A program made the translations under genes and the position numbers. Under the pieces are notes generated by a model, which was not told the origin of the DNA, did not search any database, and saw only the letters and a list, made by a program, of their open reading frames with translations. A stretch of 64,000 nt of DNA from a bacterium 0.1xD8-71 (GTDB lineage Bacteria; Bacillota; Clostridia; Lachnospirales; Lachnospiraceae). Numbering within the stretch: position 1 is the first letter of the stretch; each line of letters opens with the position of its first letter. The DNA lies in the NCBI GenBank assembly GCA_003612405.1, contig RAYR01000013.1, positions 113,334 to 177,333 on the forward strand, read 5' to 3'. Positions 8,647 through 41,587 of the stretch are shown piece by piece.

Positions 8647-8661
8647 ACAGGCATGCTCCTT

Positions 8662-9324: not shown

Positions 9325-9377
9325 ATATTCTCCTTAATCCTTACAGGCTGAATTCTCTATTAATATGCAATAATATT

Positions 9378-9406
9378 AATATAATAGATTTTTCTAATTT
9401 AGACAA
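9378..9406 (-). promoter_or_regulatory. Sigma-A-like promoter for the CDP-alditol genes
   Basis: On the minus strand TTGTCT (9406-9401) and TATATT (9383-9378) are 17 bases apart, in the 151-base gap downstream of wecB. This would let the epimerase/TarI/dehydrogenase trio be expressed apart from the large upstream cluster. Confidence 0.5.
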
Positions 9407-9475
9407 TGCTTTCATTAAATATTACTGTATCCTTCACACCATACCTCTTTTCTATCCTGAAAAGAATATCGATTT

Positions 9476-12390: not shown

Positions 12391-12392
12391 TC

Positions 12393-13568: not shown

Positions 13569-13590
13569 CCCTGTCTCCTATATACTCCTG

Positions 13591-14703
13591 TCATTCCGTA
13601 ATTCTGTTAATCAATTCAATAAAACAAATATAATCTGTGATTCCACATTCATCCAACTGCTTTGCAAGTACAGTTACTTTTCCACTGTCCACAGCGATGA
13701 CAATCTGATACTCCTGATAAATATCCTGCAACTCTTCAAATGAGATAATCTGTTTGCCATAAAGCCTGGTACCGACAATATCCGAATTATTATCAACAAA
13801 ACAATAAATTTTATCTTCTCCGAAATATGTAAGGGCATTTTGTCCAAAGATACCGGCTCCAAAAAGAATTATTTTTTTCTCTGTATCGTATTTTCTTTTC
13901 CGTTCTATCCACTGTATATTTTCCGGCAGCTTGTCATGCCAGAATATACGCTTTAACTCTACATATCTGCTTTCATCCTGGAATATCATATCAATGAATA
14001 AACATTCTTTCTCTTCCGGTGCAATTTTAGACAGGAGAAACGGCAGTTCCCGTAACCGCAACCGGTAAAGCTGCCTGTTGATCAAATCGGCTTTGGTCTG
14101 CGTCAGACTGCCTTTATGCCTGCGATAATAATAATCAAGGCTGTCAAGATGATAAATCTCATACTGCGCGTTAATCCGCAGCCAATAATCATAATCTTCC
14201 ACCAGGAACATTTCCTCGTCATATCCGCCCGTTTTCTCAGCGGCTTCCCGCCGATACAAAAAACAGCCGCCAACTACATCTTTGTAATATAGTTTCTCTG
14301 CTCCTTCCGAAAAAGCCCCTTCTATCTGCCCGTCAGAGTCGATAAAATACATACTGCTGTAAACCATGGCATAGCGTGGATTTTTCTCCAGAAAAAGCAC
14401 CATATGTTCTAATGCCTTTTCTCCAAACCGATTATCATCTGATGTCCATGTAAAATATCTCCCGGAAGCATAACGAAACCCTATATTCAGACTTCGCGGA
14501 AGCTTCTGGTTTGTTTCGTTGTTGATAATCCTGATTCTTGCATCATCATACTCCTTCATAATTTCAAGCGATCGGTCAGAAGAACAGTCATTGACCAGGA
14601 TCAGTTCCCAGTCTGCAAACGTCTGTGAAACAATACTGTCTATGGATTCCCTTAAATATTTCTCCCCATTATAAACAGGCATTACAATACTCACCATCGG
14701 CAT
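13591..14703 (-). CDS. GT2 glycosyltransferase with C-terminal FGAG Rossmann module
   Basis: A 370-residue protein. The N-terminal GT-A domain opens MPMVSIVMPVYNGEKYLRE, with VNDCSSDRS and a DxD-like TSDDNRFGEKA. The acceptor side holds LVEDYDYWLRI, which fits an inverting family 2 transferase. From about residue 275 a Rossmann module begins KKIILFGAGIFGQNALTYFG. It is nearly the same as the N-terminal module of the 605-residue fusion two genes downstream, so the module seems to have been moved between proteins. It should add a sugar to the surface or flagellin glycan. Confidence 0.8.
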   Translation of the reverse strand: MPMVSIVMPVYNGEKYLRESIDSIVSQTFADWELILVNDCSSDRSLEIMKEYDDARIRIINNETNQKLPRSLNIGFRYASGRYFTWTSDDNRFGEKALEHMVLFLEKNPRYAMVYSSMYFIDSDGQIEGAFSEGAEKLYYKDVVGGCFLYRREAAEKTGGYDEEMFLVEDYDYWLRINAQYEIYHLDSLDYYYRRHKGSLTQTKADLINRQLYRLRLRELPFLLSKIAPEEKECLFIDMIFQDESRYVELKRIFWHDKLPENIQWIERKRKYDTEKKIILFGAGIFGQNALTYFGEDKIYCFVDNNSDIVGTRLYGKQIISFEELQDIYQEYQIVIAVDSGKVTVLAKQLDECGITDYICFIELINRITE

Positions 14704-14704
14704 A

Positions 14705-15913
14705 TCAATTTTCCTCCAGCCACTTTGGCAGATCTTCCTGAAGCAATAACTGCTTGTCTATCCATATAATTTTATTGCCGTCAATCTGTTTTTCTATCAG
14801 ACTGTCATAAATTTCCCGTGCAATCTCCTCATTCAGAATCGTAATCAGAATATAATCGCACTCTATTTGGTTTAAGTTATCTGGCCTGATAACCGGCAAC
14901 TGCCTTTTATCCCGCTGCCCTGCATTTTTATCCACCCACGATACCAGCTTGCAAAATCCAGTCTTTACAATATATTTGTACATCGTAATCCCAAATTGCC
15001 CTGCCCCGTACAATATCACATTGGATGCTTTCTTCACTCCCCGGAACGGAAACAAATATCCATAATCCTCTGACATTGTTTTTTCATATTGACGAAGTAA
15101 AATCACAAACCAAAGATATAGCTTCACCTGTTTTGCAAACAGCTCATAATCCCAATGCGCTTTGATTATCGCCGTTACAGCAGCATACAAATACCGGATA
15201 TCGCTCTGGCTTACGCTGATCGTATCCAACCCGTTGATATAATTATTCTGCCTGTAATGATATGGACAGATGTCCAGAACAAGTAAATTCCCTGCCTGTG
15301 ACAGAACATGAAGTGTTCCTACCGCATCCTCTCCGTAGACAACACGCTCCTCAGAATTCAGGTACTGAGACTTCAATAACACTTCCCTTCTTACGACCTT
15401 CGTAACCCAATTAGGCAAAATCCCCCATTCAAAAAAACTGCCGTTGCAAAAAATGCCGGAATACATTGTATGTAACTGTTCTTCCTTATAATAGCCGCTT
15501 GCTATATTATTTCTTTTTGAGACAATATAATCTGTATAAACTTCCTGCAATCCGAATACAACACAGTCTACTTCTTCATAATCCCCAATGGCCGTGATAA
15601 CTTTTTCATACATATCCTTCTCAATAAAATCATCCGAATCAATAAAAGATATGTATTCTCCATTCGCTGCCCTCAGTCCGGCCTTTCTGGCTGCAACCAT
15701 CCCTTTATTGATCTGATGGATAACAGTAATCCGACTGTCCTTGGCTGCATAATAATCACAAATATTCCCACTTTCATCGGTAGAACCATCGTCTACCAGG
15801 ATAATTTCAAGATCTGTATAGGTCTGATGAATGATACTGTCAAGACATTCCCCTAAATATCCGGCCGTATTATATATAGCAACAATAACACTTATGGCAG
15901 CTTTGTTTTTCAC
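14705..15913 (-). CDS. GT2 glycosyltransferase with C-terminal YGAG Rossmann module
   Basis: A 402-residue protein whose start overlaps the preceding gene by ATGA. The GT-A domain has ISVIVAIYNTAGYLGECL, VDDGSTDESGN and the metal-binding FIDSDDFIEKD. From residue ~300 a Rossmann module starts SNVILYGAGQFGITMYKYI. It lacks transmembrane segments and is probably cytoplasmic. Similar in design to the next gene downstream, but the GT domains differ clearly, so the acceptors probably differ. Confidence 0.8.
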   Translation of the reverse strand: MKNKAAISVIVAIYNTAGYLGECLDSIIHQTYTDLEIILVDDGSTDESGNICDYYAAKDSRITVIHQINKGMVAARKAGLRAANGEYISFIDSDDFIEKDMYEKVITAIGDYEEVDCVVFGLQEVYTDYIVSKRNNIASGYYKEEQLHTMYSGIFCNGSFFEWGILPNWVTKVVRREVLLKSQYLNSEERVVYGEDAVGTLHVLSQAGNLLVLDICPYHYRQNNYINGLDTISVSQSDIRYLYAAVTAIIKAHWDYELFAKQVKLYLWFVILLRQYEKTMSEDYGYLFPFRGVKKASNVILYGAGQFGITMYKYIVKTGFCKLVSWVDKNAGQRDKRQLPVIRPDNLNQIECDYILITILNEEIAREIYDSLIEKQIDGNKIIWIDKQLLLQEDLPKWLEEN

Positions 15914-17028: not shown

Positions 17029-17682
17029 TTAGTCAACTTGATATCCATTCCTTACCCATTGGACAGCTCTTTCATAATCATTAATTGTGTCTATTTCTCT
17101 TGTTCTTATATTCATGAATTCCACCGGCAGATAAGGTTCGATTAATTGAAATACATGTCCCATTCCTTTTTGTATTTTGTCACTTTTCATCTGCGTGATT
17201 CCATTCCACTCATAATTGCCGCGGCATCTTGAAAAAGCGCTTACCAATTCTTTCCCTTTTTCCTCATAAGTTTGAAGCATCCATGGATCATCTGTCTCCA
17301 CAGGACCGCCGCCGACAAATTCATGTTGGCAGTCTAAAATTATTTTCATATCATCCGGATGAACAAGCAAATCACCGTCAAGAGATAAGATATATTCATT
17401 TGCATAACGGGCCGCCAAAACTACACTTGCTCCAGTTCCTGTATTCCGAAAATCATGATTAAAAACAAATACAACATCATTCCTGTATTTTCTAATCGTT
17501 TCTATCACTTTTTCGGCCTGATATCCAACGACTACCCGGATATCAGTTTCCTTATCGAGCATTTCAAGATGTCTCACAATAAGCGGCTTTCCTTCAACCT
17601 CAACCAACGCCTTTGTCGTGCTAAGTCCCAGCCTGTTACCCATTCCCGCACAAGATATAATGATCGTCCGTGAAAATCCCAT
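17029..17682 (-). CDS. LicC-like nucleotidyltransferase
   Basis: A 217-residue sugar-nucleotidyltransferase fold protein. The N-terminal loop reads IISCAGMGNRLGLSTTKAL, with LSLDGDLLVHP and a C-terminal REIDTINDYERAVQWV typical of LicC/CTP:phosphocholine cytidylyltransferases. It has a strong ribosome site (GGAGG). It follows a SerB-like HAD gene, a methyltransferase gene and a LicD/TagF fusion gene. That set resembles, from memory, the C. difficile type A flagellin modification genes (CD0241-CD0244). It would activate a phosphorylated small molecule as a CDP derivative for phosphotransfer. Confidence 0.75.
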   Translation of the reverse strand: MGFSRTIIISCAGMGNRLGLSTTKALVEVEGKPLIVRHLEMLDKETDIRVVVGYQAEKVIETIRKYRNDVVFVFNHDFRNTGTGASVVLAARYANEYILSLDGDLLVHPDDMKIILDCQHEFVGGGPVETDDPWMLQTYEEKGKELVSAFSRCRGNYEWNGITQMKSDKIQKGMGHVFQLIEPYLPVEFMNIRTREIDTINDYERAVQWVRNGYQVD

Positions 17683-17698
17683 CGCCCGTCACCTCCGT

Positions 17699-18301
17699 TT
17701 ACAGTAATCTTTCCAATAAATCCACTAATTTTTCCTCACAATATATAGCATGACTTGCACACTCTAATACAGCAGGTGCAATCTCACGAACTCCTCCATA
17801 ACCAATCCCTATCTCTGCGGCTTCTATCATTTCTGCATCATTATTTCCATCTCCGACTGCCACAAAAGGTAAAATCATTTGGCTGACCACTGCATTTTTA
17901 TCAACTACACTGAACACATCCTGTATGTAATTGTCTTTTACCAGTGCTTTAGACGAAAACACATGGTGTTCCATTCCGATTTTTTTCATAAGACCATCAA
18001 TCCAAATATCCAAATTACCTGTGACAATATGACATCTTGCACGGTTTCTTCTGATGAAACTTACTAATGCTTCATTTAATTCAATACTGTTTACAATACT
18101 GTCAATCTGGTTCACCGGAATATCTTTCAACAGTTCCACCCTTTGAAGAAAACTCTGCTTAAACGGTATTTCCCCATACATGGTACTTTCCGTCAAAGCG
18201 CACATCTTTTCATATACACCTGTATTCTTCGCAATTGTTGGCAAAATCTCCTGTTTTGTAATAGTTGAGTCCAAATCAAAAAGAAATATATATCTGCTCA
18301 T
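17699..18301 (-). CDS. HAD-family SerB-like phosphatase
   Basis: A 200-residue HAD protein. Motif I is FLFDLDSTIT (nucleophile Asp in the DxDST pattern), motif II is near HIVTGN, and motif III/IV is VAVGDGNNDAEMIEAA, with a helical cap between. This resembles phosphoserine phosphatases. In C. difficile and P. aeruginosa flagellin-modification loci a related HAD gene sits beside a nucleotidyltransferase gene, as here. It may act on a phospho-amino acid or phospho-alcohol intermediate. It is probably not the housekeeping serine enzyme. Confidence 0.75.
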   Translation of the reverse strand: MSRYIFLFDLDSTITKQEILPTIAKNTGVYEKMCALTESTMYGEIPFKQSFLQRVELLKDIPVNQIDSIVNSIELNEALVSFIRRNRARCHIVTGNLDIWIDGLMKKIGMEHHVFSSKALVKDNYIQDVFSVVDKNAVVSQMILPFVAVGDGNNDAEMIEAAEIGIGYGGVREIAPAVLECASHAIYCEEKLVDLLERLL

Positions 18302-18329
18302 CCCAAATGCCCTCTCCGTTCAACATAGA

Positions 18330-19067
18330 TTACCTTTCCAATATGTAATAATATTGTGCTGTCTCTTTTCGATTATTCAACTGATCTTCTTCAAATAAAA
18401 ATCCCTCATGGGTTATTGCAAACCCAGCCGACAAGAAACTATCTTGAAATAGTTTTTTTAATTCATGATCCGTCCTATATATGGCATTATAATTTTCTTC
18501 TAATTCCTCAGAATAAAAATCTTTTAATGTTAATCTGTTTTGCAAACCAATCGGCTCACGGATACACACAATACAATGTTCTTCACAATGCTTAATAATA
18601 CTATGCAGTGCCTGCATCAAATCTTCATCATTTATATATACCAAAATACCTATTAACAAGATCCTGTTAAAATATTCCTTCTGGTTCTCCTCCAATACCC
18701 TGTCAATATCTGTAATTGAGCCCGCCAAAAAAATCATATTCTCCCGTTTATTTCTTTCATTCGCAATGGAAATCAACTCTTCCGAAAAATCAACACCACA
18801 ATACTCTGTTATTTCCTCCTGAACAGCGTCTGCCCATCTTCCTATTCCACACGCTAAATCCAATATTCTTGAATTTTGATCAATCTTAAGCATTGGGTAT
18901 AATTTTTCAATTTCTTTTGTATTTCTCTGTTTCACAAGCTCGGCATTATTATCCTGATACATCGTTACCGCATAGGGATTATTTTCATTATACTTATTCG
19001 CTCTTTTTCCAAAAAAACGTTTTGTCTCACAATAATCCAAATTCTCCGTTTTATCCTTAAGTCTCAT
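18330..19067 (-). CDS. Class I SAM-dependent methyltransferase
   Basis: A 245-residue methyltransferase. Motif I is ILDLACGIGRWADAV (~residue 68 onward), then YCGVDFSEELIS, and a post-motif with RILLIGILVYINDED. The start overlaps the upstream LicD/TagF fusion gene by 11 bases, so the two are translated together. By analogy with the C. difficile type A locus it could N-methylate an amino acid or amino alcohol that is later attached through phosphate. That assignment is inferred from neighbours. N-methylation of ethanolamine phosphate is an alternative. Confidence 0.75.
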   Translation of the reverse strand: MRLKDKTENLDYCETKRFFGKRANKYNENNPYAVTMYQDNNAELVKQRNTKEIEKLYPMLKIDQNSRILDLACGIGRWADAVQEEITEYCGVDFSEELISIANERNKRENMIFLAGSITDIDRVLEENQKEYFNRILLIGILVYINDEDLMQALHSIIKHCEEHCIVCIREPIGLQNRLTLKDFYSEELEENYNAIYRTDHELKKLFQDSFLSAGFAITHEGFLFEEDQLNNRKETAQYYYILER

Positions 19068-21327
19068 GTTTACTATCCTCCCTTATCATACAAACCAGCT
19101 CTTCCAGTTCCTTTATATTCTTATTACCATATATCTGTTTAACCAATTCTTTTCTACTTTCCAGAAAATCATCTTTCATCATCACATGATCAACCACATT
19201 ATGTAATTCAGATGGTGTTTTAACACTTACAGCCAATCTATCCATAATAGGCTTAAAGCTGTTCTTTTCTTTTATTGGTGAATAAAGTAATATCAACTTT
19301 ATCCCCTCATTTGCAAAAGGCACTTCTGTTGCCGCCCCCGAAATAGCATCGCACAATGCAATGTTCCCTAAGTTCGCAGCTTTTTCAAATTCATAATTCC
19401 CGGCTAATACAACATCCGATATTTCATCCAATACACTTAAACGTTCCTGCTCTGTTTCTAATCGATATGTGCAATGATGTGCTTTGGTTATGATGAAATA
19501 TTTTTGTCTAAGCCTGCTGATTTCGTCTGCATACCATAATATTGACGAACTATCATCCCATGTCGGAAAATACACCAAAACCGGTTTTCGTTCTGGATTA
19601 AGTACATCAAAATTTATATCTGTATTCTCTATATGCAGCCTGTCATACACATTCATATACTTGGGATAACCAATTTGTATAATCCCCGTAGTTCCTTTGT
19701 CAGATAAAAGCTGCTCATAACTTACTTTTCCATGAACAAGTTTATAATCAAATCCTGCTATGGTCTTTTTCGATTCGCAAAATGAATATGTTGTAAGACC
19801 ATATCCATATGCCATATGAACCTTTTTCTTTTTATATTTTCTTAAAACATCAGCCTCCTGTGTCGTAAATGCAAAATCCGCTTCCGGATTACACTCAAAA
19901 CCATATCTGACATGATTTTCATTCAAAATTTTATTTGCAGTATCAAAATCAAACCATCTTCCAGAGGTGTTTCTTTCAGCCGGTTCGGCAATGAATTTGG
20001 AATAGATTCTATTTTTTTCAAAAGCCCAATATAAAGGCAGAAAATGATATATCTCAAATGCATCCACTAAATAAAATTCAACAGTCGGCCAAAAATCCAC
20101 AAAATATTTTTCCATATATTCCCCATGCGGATTATTGCCAAATTCTCTCGGAAACTCCATATAATCCGGATATTCATACTGTAAAAAACGATGTGGATTA
20201 TTGGGCACAAAGAAAAAAGTATTCTCAAATCTGTGTTCCTTAAGCGGAAACAAATCCACTGCATCTATCCAGCCTCTCCCCTTTTTATATCTCAAAAACC
20301 CTTCAACACTATCTATGCCCGGATGAATTTTGCCTGTCGGCTGCTCACTGATATTATTATTGTGTTTTATTTCATTTCTTATAAAGGACATAATATCAGG
20401 TACATTCCCAATTTCCTTTTTTCTGTTTTCCAACCAGGCCAGATACTTATTATGTTCTTCTATGGAATACTCCTCTTTGTAAAAATCAAATGGCCAGAAG
20501 TCAACCGCCTTACGGTCAAGTGCAGAAGTTCCCCTCGTAATCTGTATCTGGTCAACCCAAATATCTAAAATATACTGATTCGGATGCTCACATACCACTC
20601 TGTCCAATCTTGCCATATGCTTATCTGTGGTATAATCCAGCCAGCTGCCATCATAGATTTCAACAAAACATTTTTCCCTGCAAAAAAGAAGCAATTTCTC
20701 ATAATCTTCTCTTATCAGCCCAAAATCCAAATCGTCATCCCATGGCACATATCCGTTATGTCTGACTGCTCCAATCAAATTGCCGCCAATCAAAAATGGC
20801 TTGATATTTAATTCTTGTATAAATTCAAAGAATTCTAAAGCAAATCTCATGATATCCATTTGCTTTTTCCTCAGATATCCTGTCGCAGGTTTTAATGCCG
20901 TAATATCCGCATGTTGTTTCAGATAATCCAACTGATACTGTAGTTTCTGTGCCTTATCACGATAATAATCCCGTTGAAGATAACTTCGCTTCTCCGGAGA
21001 GGCATATTTACTTATAAATTCCCCGGCAGTTAATTCCTTTAACACATCCTTCTTAATCATTTCATAGATTAAAAAATCATAGATTTCCCTTGCCTCAAGC
21101 ATATCGGCTATTTCATGCGCAATATTAATACTGGTACTGATTAATAAAATATAATCCCCATGTATTTCCTCTAATCGGCTTCTGGAAATGACTTCTTTTC
21201 CATATACGGTTTTCCCGACCAGATCGTCCCTGCTGTCACAAAAACAGGCAATATTCTCTTCTCCGAAAAAATCCAGAGCCTCCCTACCAATATTTCCACA
21301 ACCGTATAATATTATCCTGACAGCCAT
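19057..21327 (-). CDS. Rossmann-LicD-TagF-like triple fusion phosphotransferase
   Basis: A 756-residue protein. Residues 1-110 hold a Rossmann module (VRIILYGCGNIGREALDFFG). Residues ~150-400 hold a LicD domain with the hallmark LIGGNLIGAVRHNGYVPWDDD and following LDFG. Residues ~480-750 resemble CDP-glycerol/teichoic-acid transferases of the TagB/TagF group (KKVHMAYGYGLTTYSF, QIGYPKYMNVYDR, ISGAATEVPFANEG). LicD transfers phosphocholine-like groups and TagF transfers alditol phosphates, so the protein likely forms phosphodiester bonds on a glycan. Ribosome site AAGGAG. It resembles C. difficile CD0244 in neighbourhood. Donor identity is unproven. Confidence 0.75.
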   Translation of the reverse strand: MAVRIILYGCGNIGREALDFFGEENIACFCDSRDDLVGKTVYGKEVISRSRLEEIHGDYILLISTSINIAHEIADMLEAREIYDFLIYEMIKKDVLKELTAGEFISKYASPEKRSYLQRDYYRDKAQKLQYQLDYLKQHADITALKPATGYLRKKQMDIMRFALEFFEFIQELNIKPFLIGGNLIGAVRHNGYVPWDDDLDFGLIREDYEKLLLFCREKCFVEIYDGSWLDYTTDKHMARLDRVVCEHPNQYILDIWVDQIQITRGTSALDRKAVDFWPFDFYKEEYSIEEHNKYLAWLENRKKEIGNVPDIMSFIRNEIKHNNNISEQPTGKIHPGIDSVEGFLRYKKGRGWIDAVDLFPLKEHRFENTFFFVPNNPHRFLQYEYPDYMEFPREFGNNPHGEYMEKYFVDFWPTVEFYLVDAFEIYHFLPLYWAFEKNRIYSKFIAEPAERNTSGRWFDFDTANKILNENHVRYGFECNPEADFAFTTQEADVLRKYKKKKVHMAYGYGLTTYSFCESKKTIAGFDYKLVHGKVSYEQLLSDKGTTGIIQIGYPKYMNVYDRLHIENTDINFDVLNPERKPVLVYFPTWDDSSSILWYADEISRLRQKYFIITKAHHCTYRLETEQERLSVLDEISDVVLAGNYEFEKAANLGNIALCDAISGAATEVPFANEGIKLILLYSPIKEKNSFKPIMDRLAVSVKTPSELHNVVDHVMMKDDFLESRKELVKQIYGNKNIKELEELVCMIREDSKHET

Positions 21328-21351: not shown

Positions 21352-23901
21352 TTATTCAGCAACCAGCTCATTAATACATTTGTTGATTATCTTTCCGGCG
21401 TTCCCGTCAGAATTTACAAACAGACTGCAATACTTTTCCTTTTGCTTCTCCGATACTGCTGTTTCTGGCTGAAATTCGTTCAGAACATGCCGCAGGTTAT
21501 AAATATGATTTTCCCTTATCACAAAGTCATCCGCCAGAATACTGCTGTACTTTTCCCCTCTCAAACCGGAACATGACAGCTTCTCCATATCCTCCTGTTG
21601 ATAGGCGGGCGTAAAAGTGTCTGTCGGCCTGCCGCCTTTTCCAATGACCATCAACATGGAATTTCCGTCTGAATAAGAAATCCCCGCAATAACCTCTTCA
21701 TCGTTCATCTTTTTCAGAACAGACCTTGTCCCGGAGAAAAACCTGTCCTTTGATGTGAATACGGATTCCATCCCGCCTGTCGCCGGATTCACCCTGACGA
21801 GCATATTCCCCTGATAAGGAAGCAGCCATAAAAACCCATTGGCATAACAGATGCTTTCCCAATAACGCGGCAATACGCAACCGTCCGGCAATGCATCATA
21901 TTCTGTTAATGTCCCAGCATCCTTATTCCACTTGATTACACCTTTATACCTCTGCGAAATCAACCAGAAGTCTTTGCCGTCAAACGCTATGCCGCTGTAA
22001 GTCTTCGTGCTGTTACCAATCTGAAACAGCTTCATCCGATGCTCTTCAAAGCTATACTCTGCAACCAGATTTCTATTGTTAATGCAAAGATATATTTTGT
22101 TATCAACAATACAGTCGCTATTGTAAAAAACAGGTTCATCCTGTTCAAAGCGATATTGCCCCTGCAACACAAGGTCATTTAACTGCTCTTTTCTAAAGCT
22201 GTTATTATCAGTGTCATACACGATGACACAGTCCCCTCTCCACGGGAACATATAGAGACAATTCTTCCACATGGAAGCGGCAAAAAACTTATATCCCCGC
22301 AGTTGTAAGGACTCCGGTAATGCAATCCTTGTAAAACTGCCACTCGCAAGTTCATACTTGGCAATCGCTACTGCTTTACATGGTATCATCCAGATTGCAT
22401 CCGCCGTTTTGATCATCCGGGAATACAGCCAGTCATCAAAATCATTTTCATCCGGCACTTTTCCTACAAAAACAGTCCTGCGCTGCGCAGCATCCCATTC
22501 ATATAATCCATTATACTCCTGCGCAGTAAACCAAAGTCTTTTATTCTCCCAGGCACAATCTGTAATGCGAATATCCTTTCTTTCTTCCAGCAGTCTGACT
22601 AACATACTTTGCAGGACAATCGGCTTCCCGGTAATCCCATATAAATGCACAACAGAACTGTCATCTCCATAATATAAATCCGTCCAGGCAATCGCTCTGT
22701 GCAAGTCGGCCGTTGTATCATAAATGCCCCATTCATTTTGTTCAAATTCCTGTATAATCTGCTGATACTCTTCCCAAAGCCCGGAACGCATGGATAAAAT
22801 TGCGCTGGCACTTAACGGATGCGGTCTCCACCAGAGTACAAAATCCTGATTCCCTTTAAAAAAGCTTATTGTATCTTTTATTTTTTCCAGCTCCTGTCTT
22901 TTCCCTGCCAGAATACCGGAAATACTTGTATTATAAAAAACCGCTTTTCTGCCCCCGATAATCTCCTTCCATTTCTGTGGAATCACAAAATCTTCTCTGG
23001 AAGAATTTATCACCTTATCTATTTTGGGAGACCCCAGTATGAGCCATTTGTTTTGTAGTATCTGAGTAACCTGCGTTTCCGAAATCCCTTCCTCCACAGC
23101 ACTCCGTACAAATTCCCTTGTAAAAACATCTGCCTCCTTTTGCGACTGCAAAACAACCTTATCCGCATGAATCGTTGCCGCATTAACCGCAAACACAGGA
23201 TGTATGATATCTCCCATTATGAAGTACGGTATATATATTAAACATTCTGTGTATTTTTGCAGCTCTGTAGAATAGAACCGTGGATGAACGCTCGTAACCT
23301 TATTTCCGCCGTCATATGGATTATGAATGTAAATAATATCCGGTCTGCGTTCCTCCAGGAGGTAATCCTCATAATGGGTGATCTGCACATATTCCGGAAA
23401 ATCATATCCTTCATAATGCATCTCCATAGATTCTCCGTCTGCACCTCTGCCATAATAAGGAATCGGCACACAATATACATCACATCTCATGTCTTCTTTC
23501 GCTGCCAGATAAACGCTCTCCAGACTATCCCACATAGACGCCTTATATGGCATGAAAACAATCTCTTTACGGCACGCAATATCATAGCGAACACTGTTCT
23601 CTATCCGAAGCAAGTGCTTTTTCAGCATTTTGTATGCTTTATTGTCCGAAAAATCATCTATATTTTCAAACACACAATAAATCGCCTCGCAGTATTCTTC
23701 CACATAAGAAACAGTAACACACGATTCTCCTTCAGCCGCCTCAATCGTTGTGCCAAGTTCTATGGCATAATCCTGGCATTTGGCAAGCAATTCCTGCGCA
23801 GCTACATGGTCATGTTTACGCATATTCTCCCTGATGTTTGTGTGTACCTGATGTAAATTCTTTATAAAATTGTGTATTTCACGCTTCCCTGCCAGTCTCA
23901 T
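21352..23901 (-). CDS. TagB/TagF-like transferase fused to a beta-propeller-like domain
   Basis: About 849 residues from the ATG at 23901, which aligns with the start of its paralogue at 32198-33550 (MRLAGKREI versus MRIAQKQQA) and has AGGGAAG upstream. An ATG at 23922 is also possible. Residues 1-~440 match the paralogue throughout: EIVFMPYKASMWDSLESV, DIIYIHNPYDGGNKVTSVHP, WLILGSPKIDK and WWRPHPL. The region looks like a GT-B/CDP-glycerol-transferase type protein. Residues ~460-820 contain repeated Trp/Tyr-rich blades (for example LYMFPWRGDCVIVYD, FWLISQRYKGVIKW, LWLLPYQGNMLVRV), consistent with a beta-propeller that may bind glycan or flagellin. Exact activity is not known. Confidence 0.6.
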   Translation of the reverse strand: MRLAGKREIHNFIKNLHQVHTNIRENMRKHDHVAAQELLAKCQDYAIELGTTIEAAEGESCVTVSYVEEYCEAIYCVFENIDDFSDNKAYKMLKKHLLRIENSVRYDIACRKEIVFMPYKASMWDSLESVYLAAKEDMRCDVYCVPIPYYGRGADGESMEMHYEGYDFPEYVQITHYEDYLLEERRPDIIYIHNPYDGGNKVTSVHPRFYSTELQKYTECLIYIPYFIMGDIIHPVFAVNAATIHADKVVLQSQKEADVFTREFVRSAVEEGISETQVTQILQNKWLILGSPKIDKVINSSREDFVIPQKWKEIIGGRKAVFYNTSISGILAGKRQELEKIKDTISFFKGNQDFVLWWRPHPLSASAILSMRSGLWEEYQQIIQEFEQNEWGIYDTTADLHRAIAWTDLYYGDDSSVVHLYGITGKPIVLQSMLVRLLEERKDIRITDCAWENKRLWFTAQEYNGLYEWDAAQRRTVFVGKVPDENDFDDWLYSRMIKTADAIWMIPCKAVAIAKYELASGSFTRIALPESLQLRGYKFFAASMWKNCLYMFPWRGDCVIVYDTDNNSFRKEQLNDLVLQGQYRFEQDEPVFYNSDCIVDNKIYLCINNRNLVAEYSFEEHRMKLFQIGNSTKTYSGIAFDGKDFWLISQRYKGVIKWNKDAGTLTEYDALPDGCVLPRYWESICYANGFLWLLPYQGNMLVRVNPATGGMESVFTSKDRFFSGTRSVLKKMNDEEVIAGISYSDGNSMLMVIGKGGRPTDTFTPAYQQEDMEKLSCSGLRGEKYSSILADDFVIRENHIYNLRHVLNEFQPETAVSEKQKEKYCSLFVNSDGNAGKIINKCINELVAE

Positions 23902-24002
23902 AATGCTTTGCTTCCCTGCCATTTTATTCTATTAATAATTTATTTTCACTATATTCAAAATCATATGCATCGCTATATAAAGCCAGGTCACATATCAAAT
24001 TA

Positions 24003-28147: not shown

Positions 28148-28252
28148 ATTCTTTCTCCTCCGTCTCTATTGCATCCGCCTTCATATAAAAATTTATATCT
28201 AACATTTTTCTTCCTCTCGCCATTCCTATAGTTTTGGCACAATAAGCTACAA

Positions 28253-29653: not shown

Positions 29654-29688
29654 TTATGCAACCTCCTGTTAAATGGTCTTGCTACCCT

Positions 29689-30567: not shown

Positions 30568-30627
30568 CTTTATCCCGTATATCCTTTCTATCCATACATC
30601 ACACCTTGACGGACTAATATTCAAATC

Positions 30628-31530: not shown

Positions 31531-31600
31531 AATACAATGCCGTTCCTTTCATCTGATTTGGACATAAAGCATAATAAATATATAATCTGCCTCTTGAATC

Positions 31601-32197: not shown

Positions 32198-33550
32198 CTA
32201 CTGGGAATTACGTTCTATATTTTGCATCATGATCATCTTTCCCGTTTTCCTATATAACTGCACCACACTGCTGGCATCTCCATAATACGCATCTGAAAGT
32301 GCCACAGCCCTGTCCATATCAGCGCTTTCATCGTAAATTCCCCAGCCTTCTTCTCTATAACGCTCTACAATCTCCTTATACATATTCCAAAGCTGAGGCC
32401 TCATAGACTCAATCGTAGCCTGTATCAACGGATGTGGACGCCACAGCAGTGTCATTTCATCCTGATTCTTCTTAAATATCTCAAGCACTGACAATATCTT
32501 CTGAAGCATCTTTTCATCATGAACAAGTAATCCTGATACACTCGTATTGTAAAAAACAATCTTCTTCCAACTTCCATCAGGCTTCTCTATGACTTTCAGC
32601 CACTCGTCAGGTACTTTCAGGCTCTCTTTTCTTGTATCCAGTACCTTATCTACTTTGGGAGAGCCTAAACCCAGAATTTTTTCTTCCCAGATTTTCCGCG
32701 TATCCTCCCCCATTGTTTCACTCATAACATTAATATAAATCTGTCGCATCTTTTCTGATTGCACAATCACCTTATCCGCATTAACCACTGCCGGCACTGC
32801 ACAGAAACGTCCCATACCTTTTACTGCCTCTTCATTATCCGGTTCAATCTCCCCTAATATATAATAAGATATATATACTAATTTATTTGTCAATCTCTTT
32901 AAATTAGGTGAATAAAAAAAGGGATGTACACTGGTCACAAGATTCCGCTCATCATAAGGGTTATGAATATATATCATATCCGGTTTCCGATTCTCGAAAT
33001 CATACGCATCGTATTTCGTAATCGGAACATAATCGGGATATAAACCTCCTTCATAGTGTACTTCCCTGAAACTTCCGTCTGGATTCTTATCATAGTAAGG
33101 GATCGGGATCACATAAGCATCACATTCCGGATCAGCATCCGCTGCCTTCCACACACTTTCCAGACTGTCCCACATGCTTGCTTTATAAGGAATAAAAACT
33201 ACCTCTCTTCTTATCACAACATCATTTTTTAAACTGTTTTCTACTTTAATCAGTTTCTGCCTCAACAATTTTTGGATTTTGGCGGCACTGATTTCACTCT
33301 TCTCTGCCAATTCTTTGTGAACCCGATAGATTGTTTCACAATAATCTTCCAATACTGCAACTGTCGGATGGTTTTCGCCCTCGGTCTCTTCAATTAAAGT
33401 TCCCATGGCAATCCCGCCGTTTTGACAGTCTTCCAAAAGCGCTGCAGCAAGCTGTATATTTTTCTGTTCTATATAATTTCTAACCTGATTATGTGCTTCC
33501 TCTATCTGCTTGACCAGTTCCTCTGCCTGTTGCTTTTGCGCAATTCTCAT
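32198..33550 (-). CDS. TagB/TagF-like transferase, paralogue without propeller
   Basis: A 450-residue protein, paralogous over its length to the N-terminal half of the 21352-23901 product: VFIPYKASMWDSLESV, PDMIYIHNPYDERNLVTSV, KILGLGSPKVDKVLD, LLWRPHPLIQ and YYGDASSVVQLY. The C-terminal pattern (HPL, then a Tyr-Gly-Asp-Ser-Ser segment) is like CDP-glycerol glycerophosphotransferases. The N-terminal ~110 residues are helical. It is the first gene of the minus-strand cluster and has a strong AGGAG start. The transferred group and the acceptor are unknown. Confidence 0.6.
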   Translation of the reverse strand: MRIAQKQQAEELVKQIEEAHNQVRNYIEQKNIQLAAALLEDCQNGGIAMGTLIEETEGENHPTVAVLEDYCETIYRVHKELAEKSEISAAKIQKLLRQKLIKVENSLKNDVVIRREVVFIPYKASMWDSLESVWKAADADPECDAYVIPIPYYDKNPDGSFREVHYEGGLYPDYVPITKYDAYDFENRKPDMIYIHNPYDERNLVTSVHPFFYSPNLKRLTNKLVYISYYILGEIEPDNEEAVKGMGRFCAVPAVVNADKVIVQSEKMRQIYINVMSETMGEDTRKIWEEKILGLGSPKVDKVLDTRKESLKVPDEWLKVIEKPDGSWKKIVFYNTSVSGLLVHDEKMLQKILSVLEIFKKNQDEMTLLWRPHPLIQATIESMRPQLWNMYKEIVERYREEGWGIYDESADMDRAVALSDAYYGDASSVVQLYRKTGKMIMMQNIERNSQ

Positions 33551-35866: not shown

Positions 35867-36979
35867 ATGCAGCCCATTTCCGTATGCATTATTGCAAAGA
35901 ACGAAGAATCCAGAATCGAACAGTGTCTCTCATCCCTCAAGCCTTACGGCTTTGAGATTGTGGTAGTGGATACCGGTTCCACAGACCGGACAAAGGAAAT
36001 TGCCGCCAGGTACGCAGACAAGGTACTTGACTTTGCATGGTGTGATGATTTCAGCGCCGCCAGAAACTATTCCCTGCGGGAAGCTTCCAACAACTGGATC
36101 TTTATGATAGACTGCGATGAGTCTGTAAAATATCTGGATTTAGAAGAGCTTACCTACTTTCGCAAGCACCTTGCAGACAGCGTCGGCTCTGTCTCCCGTG
36201 AAAACCTGGTGACAGAAAACGGCACCCTCACACTCAACAACACAGACTACACGGAACGGTTCTTTGACAGACGGCTGTACCGTTACACGGGTATTATCCA
36301 TGAGCAACTGACTCCCATACGGGGACATGAATTTCCTAACTACCTGCTCAAGACCACCCTCCTGCACACGGGCTACGACATGACGGATGCAGAACGTGAC
36401 GCCAAATACCAGCGCAATTACAATCTTTTATTAAAACAATTGGAACAGGATCCTGAGAATCCTTATCTCTACTACCAGCTGGGCAAAAGCTGTGAGATTT
36501 TAAAAGATTACAGCCGTGCCTGCGAATATTATGACAAAGGACTTACCTTCGACCTGGACCCGGAGCTTGCCTATGTGCAGGCAATGGTAGTCTCCTACGG
36601 CAATGCTTTACTGTGTACAGGCAATGCCGGGACTGCGCTGGGTTTTGAAGGTATCTATGAGGAATTTGGCAATGTAACGGATTTTGTCTATCTGATGGGC
36701 AATATTTACAGAGAAAATGGCATGTATGAGCAGGCTCTGATGCAATACCAGAAGGCTGTCGGTATGCCGCCCGGCAAACAGAACGGTACCAACAGTTTTC
36801 TGCCCGTCTACCAGTCAGGCACTATTTTAGAGACCCTGGGGGATATGGACTCCGCCATCGCCTGCTACAGGCAGTGCACCGGCTTTACACCCGCAGAAGA
36901 GAAACTAACGGCACTGATCAATGCAGCAAATAAGGCCGCAAATGAACGCACCGCAACATCGGATACCGAAACGAACTAA
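35867..36979 (+). CDS. GT2 glycosyltransferase with TPR-like C-terminus (copy 1, type A)
   Basis: A 370-residue protein. The GT-A domain opens ISVCIIAKNEESRIEQCL, with VVDTGSTDRTKEIA, WCDDFSAARNYS and the catalytic-metal segment FMIDCDESVK. From about residue 190 there are TPR-like repeats (PYLYYQLGKSCEILKDYSRA, YEQALMQYQKAV). This family includes flagellin and bacteriocin (SunS-like) glycosyltransferases, in which the TPR part helps bind protein acceptors. It is the first of four tandem paralogues, with a 15-base gap to the next. Its nearest relative here is copy 3. Confidence 0.88.
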   Translation: MQPISVCIIAKNEESRIEQCLSSLKPYGFEIVVVDTGSTDRTKEIAARYADKVLDFAWCDDFSAARNYSLREASNNWIFMIDCDESVKYLDLEELTYFRKHLADSVGSVSRENLVTENGTLTLNNTDYTERFFDRRLYRYTGIIHEQLTPIRGHEFPNYLLKTTLLHTGYDMTDAERDAKYQRNYNLLLKQLEQDPENPYLYYQLGKSCEILKDYSRACEYYDKGLTFDLDPELAYVQAMVVSYGNALLCTGNAGTALGFEGIYEEFGNVTDFVYLMGNIYRENGMYEQALMQYQKAVGMPPGKQNGTNSFLPVYQSGTILETLGDMDSAIACYRQCTGFTPAEEKLTALINAANKAANERTATSDTETN

Positions 36980-36994
36980 CATAAAGGAGCACCC

Positions 36995-38044
36995 ATGATT
37001 CCCATATCGGCCTGTATTATTACCAAAAATGAATCCGCAAATCTGGATAAATGCCTGGCTGCCCTGGCCGCCTACCCCTTTGAGATTGTGGTAGTGGACA
37101 CCGGTTCCACAGACGATTCCAAAGAGGTTGCCCGCAAATATACCGATAAAATATATGATTTTACATGGGTAGACGATTTCAGCGCCGCCAGAAACTATGC
37201 CGCCGGACGGGCGTCCCATAATATGATATTTCCCGTTGATACGGATGAATTTATTACCCGTCTGGATTGGGATGAATTGCAGGCACTGCTGGAAACAAAC
37301 CCCAAATCCGTGGGCAGTATCAAACGGCTGGACTACTTCGAGACAGACGGTGAAACCCATTGTCAGATCTGTATCATTGACAGGATTTACAACCGGAAAT
37401 ACTATCATTACGACAAGCCGATTCACGAAGTCATTGTTCCTCTGGCCCGTATCCCTTATACTTCCTATACCACGACCATTGAGGCCGATCATGTAGGATA
37501 TCTTGGCCCAGGCAATAAACTGAAGGAAAAGGCCATGCGGGATATGGAACTGCTTCTGAAAGAGCTGGAAGAGAATCCCGAGGAACCTTATTACTACTTC
37601 CAGATTGCCCAGAGCTACATGTTGATGCGCGACCCGGAGAACTCCCTTATTTACTTTCAGAAAGCAATGGAGCACCACCCGAATCCCAGAGCCGATTATA
37701 CGCATATTCTGGTATACAACTATGGCCACCTGCTTTTGGAAAAGGGTCTGCTTACAGAGGCATCCATCCTGCTTACCTACTACGAGTATTACAGTGATAA
37801 CAGGGACTACCTGTGCCTGATCGGACTTTATTATCTACACCAGAATCAGCCTTTAAAGGCGCTTCCCGAATTTGTAAAAGCATTGACTGCTCCCATGTAT
37901 GACATGACTGACCCTCGAGAACCGTCTTATTATATCGGTTATATTTATGAACTGTTTGGCAAGAAGGATATTGCCAGGACGCATTATGTAAACTGCGGTA
38001 AAGATTATGCCCCTGCTGTGGAAGCGCTTGCACGGCTAGGTTGA
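36995..38044 (+). CDS. GT2 glycosyltransferase with TPR-like C-terminus (copy 2, type B)
   Basis: A 349-residue protein: ISACIITKNESANLDKCL, VVDTGSTDDSKEVA, WVDDFSAARNYAAGRASH, FPVDTDEFITR, then helical repeats. It shares long segments with copy 4, such as RIYNRKYYHYDKPIHEVIV, FVKALTAP and FGKKDIARTHY, and less with copies 1 and 3. It probably glycosylates flagellin Ser/Thr residues or extends the first sugar. Ribosome site AAGGAG. Confidence 0.88.
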   Translation: MIPISACIITKNESANLDKCLAALAAYPFEIVVVDTGSTDDSKEVARKYTDKIYDFTWVDDFSAARNYAAGRASHNMIFPVDTDEFITRLDWDELQALLETNPKSVGSIKRLDYFETDGETHCQICIIDRIYNRKYYHYDKPIHEVIVPLARIPYTSYTTTIEADHVGYLGPGNKLKEKAMRDMELLLKELEENPEEPYYYFQIAQSYMLMRDPENSLIYFQKAMEHHPNPRADYTHILVYNYGHLLLEKGLLTEASILLTYYEYYSDNRDYLCLIGLYYLHQNQPLKALPEFVKALTAPMYDMTDPREPSYYIGYIYELFGKKDIARTHYVNCGKDYAPAVEALARLG

Positions 38045-38117
38045 TTGGGAACAGCGCTGCAAAGCCCTTCCCTGCAACGGGTTGGCACAAACATATATTT
38101 TAAAAAGGAGACTGCTT

Positions 38118-39200
38118 ATGATTCCCCTGTCAGTATGTATTATCGGTAAAAATGAAGAAAAAAATATTGAGAGATGCCTGGCCCCTCTTGTACCCTATGG
38201 CTTCGAGATCATCTATGTAGATACCGGATCCACAGACCGCACCAAAGAGCTGGCCGCCAAATATACGGATAACATTTATGACTTTGAATGGGTCAATGAC
38301 TTCAGTGCCGCCAGGAACTTTTCTCTTCAGAAAGCATCCCATAACTACGTGTTGGTCATCGACTGTGATGAATTTCTGACTGACATCGATCTTGACGGCA
38401 TCGAACATGCAGTCAATGAACATCCCCGCGGAATTGGTATGGTACTGCGAATCAACCAGTGTGAATCCAATGGTAAGATGACGACCTCTCCCGACCGCGT
38501 GGAACGCCTGTTCCACAAACGCTATTATCACTATAATTATACAATACACGAACAGGTATGCGATATTAATACCAACAGTACTTACTGTGAGCGCTATGAT
38601 ATTCCACTTACTCTGGATCATGTGGGTTATGTAGGGGGAGAGGAAGATAAAAGGCGTAAGGCGGAGCGCAACAATGAACTGCTTTTTAAAGAAATTGAGA
38701 AACACCCGGACGATCCCTATTTCTATTTCCAGGTCGGACAGTCCTACAACTTGATTAATGACTATGAAAATTCCTACATTTATTATAAAAAAGCCTTTGA
38801 GCTTCCTCTGAACACGGAAGAACTCTGGGTACAGTTCATGGCAGTCACCTTTATCAACTCCATGACACATACCGGACGATCCGATGAGGCCCTGGAACTT
38901 TTTGAACCTGTTTACAGCTGTTTTGCCAACACGGCTGATTTCTATTGTAGTATGGGTAATATTTACTTAAATCTGACAAACCCACAGCCTCTCAAGGCAA
39001 TGATGGAATATGTGAAAGCCTCACAATGTCCAGAGGCCCGGGAGGAAGGTTCCAATACCTTTATTCCCTATTACAATATGGGCATCATCAATGAAATGCT
39101 CGGCAATGTGCCTGCTGCCATAAACTTTTATCAAAAATCTGCGGCCTATCATTATCCGCTTGCAGAAGAACGGCTTTCCGTACTGAATCGGCAGTGTTAG
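38118..39200 (+). CDS. GT2 glycosyltransferase with TPR-like C-terminus (copy 3, type A)
   Basis: A 360-residue protein from the ATG at 38118 (AAAGGAG seven bases upstream); an upstream in-frame start at 38082 lacks a ribosome site. It shows LSVCIIGKNEEKNIERCL, YVDTGSTDRTKELA, WVNDFSAARNFSLQKASH and VLVIDCDEFLTDID, followed by TPR-like helices (YFYFQVGQSYNLINDYENS). The RTKE-LAAKY and IDCDE patterns group it with copy 1, supporting duplication of a two-gene unit. Confidence 0.88.
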   Translation: MIPLSVCIIGKNEEKNIERCLAPLVPYGFEIIYVDTGSTDRTKELAAKYTDNIYDFEWVNDFSAARNFSLQKASHNYVLVIDCDEFLTDIDLDGIEHAVNEHPRGIGMVLRINQCESNGKMTTSPDRVERLFHKRYYHYNYTIHEQVCDINTNSTYCERYDIPLTLDHVGYVGGEEDKRRKAERNNELLFKEIEKHPDDPYFYFQVGQSYNLINDYENSYIYYKKAFELPLNTEELWVQFMAVTFINSMTHTGRSDEALELFEPVYSCFANTADFYCSMGNIYLNLTNPQPLKAMMEYVKASQCPEAREEGSNTFIPYYNMGIINEMLGNVPAAINFYQKSAAYHYPLAEERLSVLNRQC

Positions 39201-39256
39201 CGCCGTATCAGACCGGTTACCCTAAGGCAGACAGTTATCAATACAAGGAGATTCCC

Positions 39257-40312
39257 ATGATACCTATTTCCGTATGCATTATTACCAAAAACGAGGCGGA
39301 GCGTTTAGAACAATGTCTTCAGACGTTACAGCCCTATCCTTTTGAAATCGTAGTTGTGGACACCGGTTCAACAGACACCTCCAAGGAAACAGCCAGAAAA
39401 TACACTGATAAAGTCTATGAATTTAGCTGGATTGACGATTTCAGCGCTGCCAGAAATTATGCAGCCAAATGTGCTTCTCATGACATGATATTTTCCATTG
39501 ATACCGATGAGCTTATCAGATCCCTTGACTGGGATGCCTTGCAATCCATAATTGCAGATAATCCCAAGGGCATAGGATGCATCAGACATCTGGATTATTT
39601 TGAGACAGATTCAGAAACCAAATGCTATGATAAGATGCTTGAACGAATCTATAACCGAAAGTATTATCATTATGAACGACCCATTCACGAAGCAATCGTT
39701 CCCATGACCGCCATTTCCTGCAAATCCTACGAAACCTCCGTCACCGTAGATCATATCGGTTACCTGGGCAATAAGGATACACTACGGCACAAGGCGGAAA
39801 GAAATCTTGCTCTGCTTAAAAAAGAACTGCAAAGAACACCCGATGATCCCTATACTTACTTTCAGGTTGGCCAGAGCTACATGCTACTGCGGGACCATGA
39901 GCATGCCTGTGATTACTTTCGGGAAGCAATAGCGCGCAATCCTTCCCCCTCAGACAGTTACACCCGTATGCTGGTCAATAATTACGGGAATGTCCTGATT
40001 GATCTGGACAGGCCTGAGGAAGCCATAGGCCTGCTCTCCTATTATGAATATTATGACAATAACATAGATTACCTGTGTATGATCGGCCTGAGCTATATGC
40101 TTGTAGGACAGCCTTTAAGAGCCCTGCCGGAATTCGTTAAAGCACTAACCGCTCCCACAAGTGATTCAAGCGATCCGCGGATTCCTTCTTATTATATCGG
40201 TTATCTCTATGAGTATTTCGGCAAGAAAGATATCGCCAGAACACATTATCTGAACTGCGGAGACTACGCACCGGCCGTAGAGGCTCTGACACGACTCGAA
40301 TCTCAGATATAA
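39257..40312 (+). CDS. GT2 glycosyltransferase with TPR-like C-terminus (copy 4, type B)
   Basis: A 351-residue protein from the ATG at 39257 (AAGGAG six bases upstream). It shows ISVCIITKNEAERLEQCL, VVDTGSTDTSKETA, WIDDFSAARNYAAKCASH and FSIDTDELIRSLDWD, then repeats with SYMLLRDHEHACDYFREAI. It is closely related to copy 2 over the whole length. It ends 90 bases before flagellin, with which it converges. Confidence 0.88.
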   Translation: MIPISVCIITKNEAERLEQCLQTLQPYPFEIVVVDTGSTDTSKETARKYTDKVYEFSWIDDFSAARNYAAKCASHDMIFSIDTDELIRSLDWDALQSIIADNPKGIGCIRHLDYFETDSETKCYDKMLERIYNRKYYHYERPIHEAIVPMTAISCKSYETSVTVDHIGYLGNKDTLRHKAERNLALLKKELQRTPDDPYTYFQVGQSYMLLRDHEHACDYFREAIARNPSPSDSYTRMLVNNYGNVLIDLDRPEEAIGLLSYYEYYDNNIDYLCMIGLSYMLVGQPLRALPEFVKALTAPTSDSSDPRIPSYYIGYLYEYFGKKDIARTHYLNCGDYAPAVEALTRLESQI

Positions 40313-40402: not shown

Positions 40403-41461
40403 TTAGCCAAGTAAGGACAGTGCCAACTGGTTGGACTGATTTGCCTGTGAAAGCATGGAAGTACCAGCCTGCTGTAAGATATTGTTGTTGGAGTACTGAA
40501 CCATCTCTGTAGCAATATCTGTATCGCGGATAGCTGCCTCTGCGGAAGAGGTGTTCTCAACGATGTTATCCAGGTTGTTGATTGTGTGCTCTAATCTGTT
40601 CTGGATTGCACCGAGGTCACTTCTCTGCTGAGATACTAATACCAGCGCGCCCTTGATAAATGCGTTCAGGGAGTTGAAATCCTGTGCTGTAGCAACAGAT
40701 TCAGCCTTACCACCATCCAACTTCATGAAGGAGTTGATCAGCTTACTAGCAACATCACTCGTCATAGTTGCAGATGAATAGGAAGTACCTTTCAATGTAG
40801 AGAATGTTGTAGTTGTCTTATTACCAGCTGTACCAATCATGACACTCTGACCAGATGACAGTTTTGTGCTGCTATATGTTGTAGCTACATAGCTTGCTGC
40901 CTCATTCTTAACCAGATTATTGTAGGTAATCTTGGTATACATCTTGGTATCGATGCCTTTTGCAAGACCTGCCATACTCATATTCTGGATGGAGATGTCG
41001 ATATGCTGACCAGCTTCTGCACCAACCTGAAGGCCTTTAATGAAGGAACCGTCTAAGAGGTTCATCTCATTGAAAGTGGTTGTGCTCTGTACACGGTCAA
41101 CTTCGCTCATCAACTGTCTGATCTCGGCCTGGATAGATGCACGATCGGATGTTGTAAGTGTACCATTCTCACCCTTAACAGCCAGCTCGTTCATTCTCTG
41201 TAACATATCCTCAACTTCGTTCAATGCACCTTCAGCTGTCTGTACAACGCTGATACCATCCTGTGCATTAGCGGAAGCCTGTGTAAGACCTCTGATCTGT
41301 CTTCTCATCTTCTCGGAAATGGAGAGCCCTGCTGCATCATCTGCTGCGCGGTTGATCTTATAACCGGAAGATAATTTCTCAGTAGATTTAGCCTGAGAAG
41401 AAGTTGTCAGTCCTAACATTCTGTTAGAGTTCATTGCTGTAATGTTGTGTTTTACTACCAT
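40403..41461 (-). CDS. hag: Flagellin
   Basis: A 352-residue flagellin from the ATG at 41461, which has a perfect AAGGAGG eight bases upstream. The conserved N-terminal D0/D1 (HNITAMNSNRMLGL, LSSGYKINRAADDAAGLSIS) and C-terminal D1/D0 (AEAAIRDTDIATEMVQYS, ANQSNQLALSLL) are intact. The central part (~residues 190-260) is short and very rich in Ser and Thr, a likely O-glycosylation surface. Flagellin is secreted by the flagellar export system and polymerises into the filament. The gene has a sigma-28 promoter and a CsrA-type leader, and is flanked by glycosyltransferase genes. Confidence 0.97.
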   Translation of the reverse strand: MVVKHNITAMNSNRMLGLTTSSQAKSTEKLSSGYKINRAADDAAGLSISEKMRRQIRGLTQASANAQDGISVVQTAEGALNEVEDMLQRMNELAVKGENGTLTTSDRASIQAEIRQLMSEVDRVQSTTTFNEMNLLDGSFIKGLQVGAEAGQHIDISIQNMSMAGLAKGIDTKMYTKITYNNLVKNEAASYVATTYSSTKLSSGQSVMIGTAGNKTTTTFSTLKGTSYSSATMTSDVASKLINSFMKLDGGKAESVATAQDFNSLNAFIKGALVLVSQQRSDLGAIQNRLEHTINNLDNIVENTSSAEAAIRDTDIATEMVQYSNNNILQQAGTSMLSQANQSNQLALSLLG

Positions 41462-41469
41462 AATATATT

Positions 41470-41501
41470 CCTCCTTGAATTTATTGCGGCATCCTTGCCG
41501 C
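41470..41501 (-). promoter_or_regulatory. CsrA-binding hairpin and Shine-Dalgarno site in the hag leader
   Basis: On the transcript a 6-bp stem (GCGGCA/TGCCGC, 41501-41496 with 41491-41486) presents an AGGA loop. The core CAAGGATG matches the CsrA consensus CARGGAUG exactly. The Shine-Dalgarno sequence AAGGAGG (41476-41470), about ten bases downstream, gives the second GGA site. This is the arrangement known for B. subtilis hag (BS1 in a hairpin, BS2 over the ribosome site). Further GGA motifs lie at 41520-41540. Confidence 0.75.
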
Positions 41502-41563
41502 CACTTTGTTTTTGTAAAGATATCTCCGTCCCGTCCGCTGACTTTGATATCTCTACAGTTGTT

Positions 41564-41587
41564 CAAGTAAATTTCTTACTTTACTTG
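41564..41587 (-). other. Hairpin at the 5' end of the hag mRNA
   Basis: A perfect inverted repeat with 8-bp arms (CAAGTAAA/TTTACTTG) and an 8-base loop begins right where transcription from the sigma-28 promoter should start (about 41587). A stem at the very 5' end could protect the mRNA from 5'-dependent decay. Confidence 0.6.

Follow-up and report, generated by a model that had tools for sequence, protein, structure and literature searches.

Two strains, C. difficile 630 and P. aeruginosa PAO1, are known to cap their flagellin with phospho-threonine (PMC10714395, PMC11833859). The published model comprises a phosphoserine:threonine phosphotransferase, a CTP:phosphothreonine cytidylyltransferase, an N-methyltransferase and a CDP-threonine:sugar transferase, and is based on mutants and homology, the enzyme activities being hypothetical (PMC10714395, PMC11833859). 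One of these papers calls the step of the HAD protein the 'most challenging' prediction of the model (PMC10714395). According to a 2014 study, clustered orthologues beyond C. difficile occurred in PAO1 only (PMC4441256). Literature records, mostly at the level of listings, contain no recognised description of a type A-like set in Lachnospiraceae, which is weak evidence of absence, and passages of two papers on flagellin islands do not mention this set. Here we describe a Lachnospiraceae gene set that is related to the type A flagellin genes and, from sequence, is predicted with some confidence to make a CDP-activated, likely N-methylated amino acid whose phospho-amino-acid part would be placed on a flagellin sugar.

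The gene set and its island

The window, the whole stretch of 64,000 nucleotides that was analysed, derives from a 4.1 Mb genome of 98.3% completeness. The earlier note had described four genes at 17029..21327 as encoding a nucleotidyltransferase (NTP), a HAD protein, a methyltransferase (MT) and a LicD/TagF-like protein, and gene and domain calls bear out all four types. With the adjoining gene at 21352-23922 they form a minus-strand run in the order 856-aa protein, 756-aa fusion, MT, HAD and NTP, in which neighbours lie 24, 28 and 16 nt apart or, in one case, overlap by 11 nt. The features discussed below are as follows, with identities to L067, the type A reference locus.

17029..17682, minus strand: NTP, LicC/CD0242-like nucleotidyltransferase, predicted to act in CDP-amino-acid synthesis (PF12804; 43% to L067; reciprocal E 2.7e-60)
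17699..18301, minus strand: HAD, SerB/CD0241-like, with a predicted role in forming or handling a phospho-amino acid (TIGR01488; 51% to L067; reciprocal E 3.0e-60)
18330..19067, minus strand: MT, CD0243-like SAM methyltransferase, predicted N-methyltransferase (PF13649; 38% to L067; reciprocal E 6.7e-44)
19057..21327, minus strand: 756-aa fusion of Rossmann, LicD and TagF-like parts, candidate phosphotransferase (domain matches)
21352..23922, minus strand: 856-aa CD0244-like TagF-type protein (34% to L067; second reciprocal match, E 2.3e-48)
32198..33550, minus strand: 450-aa CD0244-like TagF-type protein (35% to L067; first reciprocal match, E 7.0e-53)
35867..36979, plus strand: GT2 protein with a CD0240-like domain, candidate first-sugar transferase (34% over 230 residues to L067)
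36995..38044, plus strand: GT2 paralogue (30% to the CD0240-like protein of L067)
38082..39200, plus strand: GT2 paralogue (31% to the same protein)
39194..40312, plus strand: GT2 paralogue (28% to the same protein)
40403..41566, minus strand: flagellin, proposed target (PF00669, 149 bits; 41% to L067 FliC)

The run lies in a minus-strand glycan island at ~6.9-33.6 kb of the window, which also encodes glycosyltransferases and radical-SAM genes. WecB and KdsA of the island both score above their profile cut-offs, while the NeuB-like and KdsC-like proteins score under theirs. The GC content is 35-45% at 12-34 kb of the window and 43-49% at 34-62 kb. Past the island come four GT2 genes, then the flagellin gene (40403-41566), 19 kb from the HAD/NTP/MT set, and then more flagellar genes, the latter named from sequence reading.

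Kinship with the type A locus

The type A yardstick was L067, a locus of genome G740 from the Clostridioides genus, in place of the strain 630 proteins themselves. The exact flagellin pattern matched only C. difficile CD160, in whose genome the window HAD had no strong match (best E 0.01). A HAD search of 60 genomes of the family of CD160 gave six matches at E 0.001, four of them strong, and an NTP search of eight genomes of its genus gave two matches, one strong (G740). L067 and the loci L055, L056 and L057 share the order FlgK, FlgL, FliW, FliS, FliD, FliC, GT2 protein, HAD, NTP, MT and TagF-type protein, the GT2 proteins measuring 713-745 aa and the TagF-type proteins 492-504 aa. The published order of cd0239-cd0244 in C. 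difficile matches this arrangement (PMC10714395). L054, the fourth strong family match, contains HAD and NTP, a LicD-like ORF and pieces of a TagF-type gene, with no match for MT; in L055 the MT frame corresponds to no more than residues 89-245 of its window counterpart.

All six L067 proteins (FliC and the CD0240-CD0244-like proteins) have a counterpart among the window ORFs. FliC is 41% identical to the window flagellin, the GT2 domain displays 34% identity to the protein at 35867-36979 and, for the three paralogues of that protein, 28-31%, and the identities of HAD, NTP and MT to their window counterparts are 51%, 43-44% and 38%, respectively. When L067 HAD, NTP and MT were used as queries, the first matches in the own genome were the window HAD (3.0e-60), NTP (2.7e-60) and MT (6.7e-44). 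The kinship with the C. difficile type A genes proposed in the earlier note, for which it had suggested reciprocal searches, thus holds for these three genes when Clostridioides-genus proteins serve as queries, but does not extend to the fourth gene, as the CD0244-like query missed the fusion. Nor do the best matches lie in phosphocholine teichoic-acid loci only, the outcome the note had set against its proposal; HAD, NTP and MT match type A genes.

The 756-aa fusion comprises a Rossmann domain (residues 1-~100), a LicD domain (~150-400) and a TagF-like GT-B domain (~412-756). Structural comparison of the model of this protein listed no LicD match, the list being filled by the GT-B domain. The Rossmann domain that the note had seen as an addition to the phosphotransferase is indeed present, although it is not a peculiarity of this enzyme, as it also occurs in the products of 10573-12390, 13591-14703 and 14705-15913. 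In the own genome the L067 TagF query found 32198-33550 (35% identity, 7.0e-53), then 21352-23922 (34%, 2.3e-48) and then an ORF on contig C69; the fusion was not among these matches at E 0.001, nor among the window-ORF matches. The fusion was consequently rejected as the CD0244 counterpart and, because it is missing from the TagF matches at this threshold, the fourth gene appears to encode an additional transferase. Both CD0244 counterparts lie outside 17029..21327, one adjoining the 756-aa gene (21352-23922) and one 11 kb away (32198-33550). The C-terminus of the 450-aa copy stops earlier than that of the type A protein, while in the 856-aa copy a long insert is followed by a C-terminal stretch that again aligns with the type A protein.

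Distribution, headgroup and target

Judged from homology searches, the type A-related set is distributed patchily. HAD was found at E 1e-15 in 10 of 397 genomes of the own family, and in 13 of the 291 genomes of a class-wide sample at E 0.001, strongly only in the own genome and G259; the names given among the 120 HAD homologues listed are Roseburia intestinalis, Lachnospiraceae bacterium and Eubacterium plexicaudatum, which makes a Lachnospiraceae the likely source. The neighbourhoods of the nine other family HAD matches were examined over up to 20 kb. One of these, L032 in G465, is a flagellin locus where MT, a racemase, HAD and NTP occur together. In the remaining eight, HAD and NTP are present, fused together in L040, and the up to 20 kb examined gave no match to flagellar genes. 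A CobD-like (threonine-phosphate decarboxylase) domain fused to a second NTP lies near HAD and NTP in seven of the eight (L033-L035 and L037-L040), where HAD is 52-61% and NTP 52-55% identical and MT is absent within the same distance. In L036 a racemase homologue (34%) takes the place of the CobD-NTP fusion. The four fusions that were profiled (L035, L037, L068 and L071) scored best, in their C-terminal part, against CobD TIGR01140, under its cut-off, and the separate enzyme in L073 scored best against HisC. An assignment of these 602-622-aa sister-locus proteins as 6pd1-like phosphonate enzymes was rejected in view of this CobD score in the four profiled; the 6pd1 match of the L035 protein is limited to its N-terminal part.

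A search of 294 relatives returned seven MT matches in six genomes, including the own genome; adding G465 brings the count beyond the own genome to six carriers and seven MT loci. In G789 (40 kb examined) and G341 (20 kb examined) no flagellin locus was found in the stretch around MT. In the flagellin locus of G320 the distance is about 25 kb for MT and 5 kb for a second MT. MT occurs together with HAD and a full NTP in only two of the seven loci (L032 and L069), which argues against a fixed set; in both, HAD residues are altered. Of the other loci, L070 pairs MT with an NTP fragment, L068 and L071 pair it with the CobD-NTP fusion and L073 with the HisC-like enzyme and its own NTP, while L072 has neither. 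As the MT loci differ in their HAD, NTP, CobD and HisC-like partners, MT apparently functions in more than one route to a headgroup.

The window HAD contains D9, D11, E18, R54, K135, D151 and N154, which are conserved phosphoserine-phosphatase residues. Its alignment with the M. jannaschii phosphoserine phosphatase covers the catalytic motifs, and E18 and R54 presumably correspond to the amino-acid-binding residues of that enzyme. All 13 aligned HADs keep E18 and K135, and 12 of them keep each of D9, R54, D151 and N154. Deviations occur in L069 (D9N, by which the nucleophile is lost, R54Q and D151N) and in L032 (N154H); these are the two flagellin loci in which an amino-acid racemase lies between MT and HAD. 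In view of D9N and D151N in L069 and N154H in L032, close relatives may do without the HAD step or carry it out differently. A phospho-amino-acid headgroup is favoured by the HAD residues, by the CobD-like enzymes and racemase in sister loci and by the missing choline kinase. The HAD-NTP fusion and the CobD-like additions in sister loci provide an independent genomic hint at a phospho-amino-acid product of HAD.

Threonine is the first candidate for the amino acid, the headgroup evidence falling short of proof. It is possible, though we consider it unlikely, that the same chemistry uses an amino acid other than N-methyl-L-threonine, for instance serine, an unmethylated residue or a D-amino acid. 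Among solved structures, the CobD-like domain is closest to 6oux, a 'threonine phosphate decarboxylase-like enzyme' that we take to be a serine-phosphate decarboxylase. This, the phosphoserine phosphatases as the closest relatives of HAD and the amino-acid racemase in sister flagellin loci are all consistent with such a substitution. Conversely, no racemase gene was found among the window ORFs, and the type A set, to which MT, HAD and NTP correspond reciprocally, yields N-methyl-L-threonine in strain 630 (PMC10714395).

Trees were built of 13 HADs, 11 NTPs and 10 MTs, from all of which L034, L038, L040 and fragments were omitted; the NTP tree further lacks L036 and L039, and the MT tree lacks L055 and the fusion of L071. 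In the HAD and NTP trees the own family splits from the Peptostreptococcaceae-side type A clade with support of 100/100. In the MT tree five family members, including that of the window, form a clade (99/99), with the divergent L072 and L073 unplaced (64/61). The set could instead decorate a different surface glycan, its proximity to flagellin being incidental, as might be suggested by the HAD and NTP of the eight family loci lacking a flagellar match, by the decayed relatives that the set has in a further polysaccharide locus of the own genome, on C69, and by two MT loci (L068/L079 and L072) that are non-flagellar in the stretch examined. This explanation is improbable, however, as MT lies within a flagellin locus in four of the six other carrier genomes (G465, G807, G795 and G320) and the NTPs of three flagellin loci form a single clade (100/99) apart from the non-flagellin NTPs; the HADs of the three loci group in the same way (89/86).

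A Lic-type phosphocholine or phosphoethanolamine pathway is very improbable, even though LicC is the closest relative of NTP with a solved structure, a LicD domain is present and MT is weakly similar to phosphoethanolamine methyltransferases, since the pathway has no role for HAD, all three enzymes match type A genes in reciprocal searches and the choline kinase model PF01633, positive in 5 of 14 control genomes, had no match in the own genome, for which reason a phosphocholine headgroup was rejected.

Proposed pathway and relation to known systems

For the preferred reading, transfer of a methylated phospho-amino acid to flagellin, the published scheme was carried over to the window set. HAD would form the phospho-amino acid, in line with the phosphoserine:threonine phosphotransferase of the published model, and NTP would couple this product to CMP, yielding a CDP-amino acid (threonine being the first candidate). 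MT would methylate the amino group. The 756-aa LicD-TagF fusion, the 856-aa CD0244-like protein or both may then transfer the phospho-amino acid to a glycan whose synthesis on flagellin would be initiated by the GT2 enzymes at 35867-40312. The tight same-strand run, the HAD-NTP fusion in L040 and the racemase that separates MT from HAD in L032 and L069 speak for this pathway; the 19 kb to flagellin, the adjacent LicD fusion that is not the CD0244 counterpart and the occurrence of HAD and NTP in eight non-flagellar loci speak against it.

More tentatively, and with somewhat less than even probability, the set may belong to a modular CDP-amino-acid family, in which a shared HAD-NTP core would yield a CDP-phospho-amino acid that swappable tails convert into varied phospho-headgroups. 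The tail modules would be the N-methyltransferase, the CobD-type decarboxylase fused to a second nucleotidyltransferase and the amino-acid racemase; LicD and TagF proteins would place the headgroups on flagellin and other glycans, and the window would represent a methylated flagellin version with a two-transferase fusion.

A similar phosphate-linked methylated amino-acid cap is likely because relatives of the C. difficile cap genes lie in the flagellin region. If true, the chemistry would reach beyond the two pathogens where it was worked out, and the core in a Lachnospiraceae flagellin region would extend the cap to bacteria whose flagellins, according to literature listings, are studied as immune targets.

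Among known systems, the Lic phosphocholine pathway (LicA-LicD) shares with the window a LicC-like NTP and a LicD domain, but in the window HAD and CD0244-like partners are present and the choline kinase (LicA, PF01633) was not found. L033-L035 and L037-L040 resemble the window in their adjacent, or in L040 fused, HAD and NTP, and differ in that MT and flagellar matches are absent (up to 20 kb) and a CobD-like decarboxylase is fused to a second NTP. The P. aeruginosa PAO1 b-type locus (PA1088-PA1091) is, by published description, likewise a flagellin locus with MT, HAD, NTP and a TagF-type function, with GT2 and TagF parts joined in one protein, PA1091 (PMC11833859, PMC4441256). The likeness to C. 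difficile type A, whose product on flagellin is GlcNAc-phospho-N-methyl-L-threonine, compared through the Clostridioides-genus locus of the same order, comprises HAD, NTP, MT, TagF-type, GT2-domain and FliC counterparts. By gene content this is the known, type A kind of set; what is different here is the transferase equipment and the gene order. Type A is a short operon, GT2-HAD-NTP-MT-TagF, directly downstream of fliC, whereas in the window the genes are spread over a large island, with the order TagF-type, LicD-TagF, MT, HAD and NTP at 19 kb from flagellin. The window has an additional LicD-TagF fusion beside MT, a pair of CD0244-like proteins, of which one carries an insert and the other is shortened, and separate short GT2 proteins in contrast to the single 713-745-aa protein of type A.

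Domain and catalytic variants of the set

In the island, four different enzymes, encoded at 10573-12390, 13591-14703, 14705-15913 and 19057-21327 in the window, share a Rossmann-like domain of ∼85 residues, whose position varies among them, being either N- or C-terminal. It is conceivable that the domain is a common docking or sensing module. The insert of the 856-aa TagF-type protein (21352-23922) spans about residues 450-800 and is matched, at 21-24% identity, by stand-alone ORFs of 411-416 aa in L068 and L070, two methyltransferase loci of the family.

The HAD protein and the nucleotidyltransferase (NTP) occur as a single 439-aa fusion in L040 (5965-7284), another HAD-NTP locus. At the flagellin locus L069, the HAD protein (2027-2638) lacks both the nucleophile aspartate and the second catalytic aspartate, and is 56% identical to the window HAD despite these losses.

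A decayed second relative of the set lies elsewhere in the same genome, at about 8835-11008 of L022 (G000:C69:155000-174999). Its surroundings on C69 are another polysaccharide locus.
About 8835-11008: NTP, HAD and methyltransferase, each as fragments
Adjoining these fragments, in the same stretch: 374-aa Rossmann-LicD gene with an open frame, lacking the TagF part

Other sugar and nucleotidyltransferase genes of the window

Three further stretches of the window were annotated.
6908-9324: genes for a zinc-type dehydrogenase, an IspD/TarI-like cytidylyltransferase and a protein like ribulose-phosphate epimerase
24173-26260: 695-aa protein that matches CBS weakly and contains a nucleotidyltransferase domain resembling citrate lyase ligase
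27368-32131: KDO-8-phosphate synthase (above its cut-off), NeuB-like, KdsC-like and B12-radical-SAM genes

The first possibly encodes a CDP-pentitol pathway, and the last, within the flagellin island, is predicted from sequence to specify a keto-acid sugar pathway. The locus L079 holds homologues of the epimerase-like gene (84%) and the 695-aa protein (43%).

A possible different headgroup route near flagellin

In L071, also a methyltransferase locus of the family, a flagellin gene lies 5 kb from a pair of fusions.
10610-14141: LicD-methyltransferase fusion, adjoining an NTP-CobD fusion

This gene pair looks like a route to a different phospho-headgroup on flagellin.
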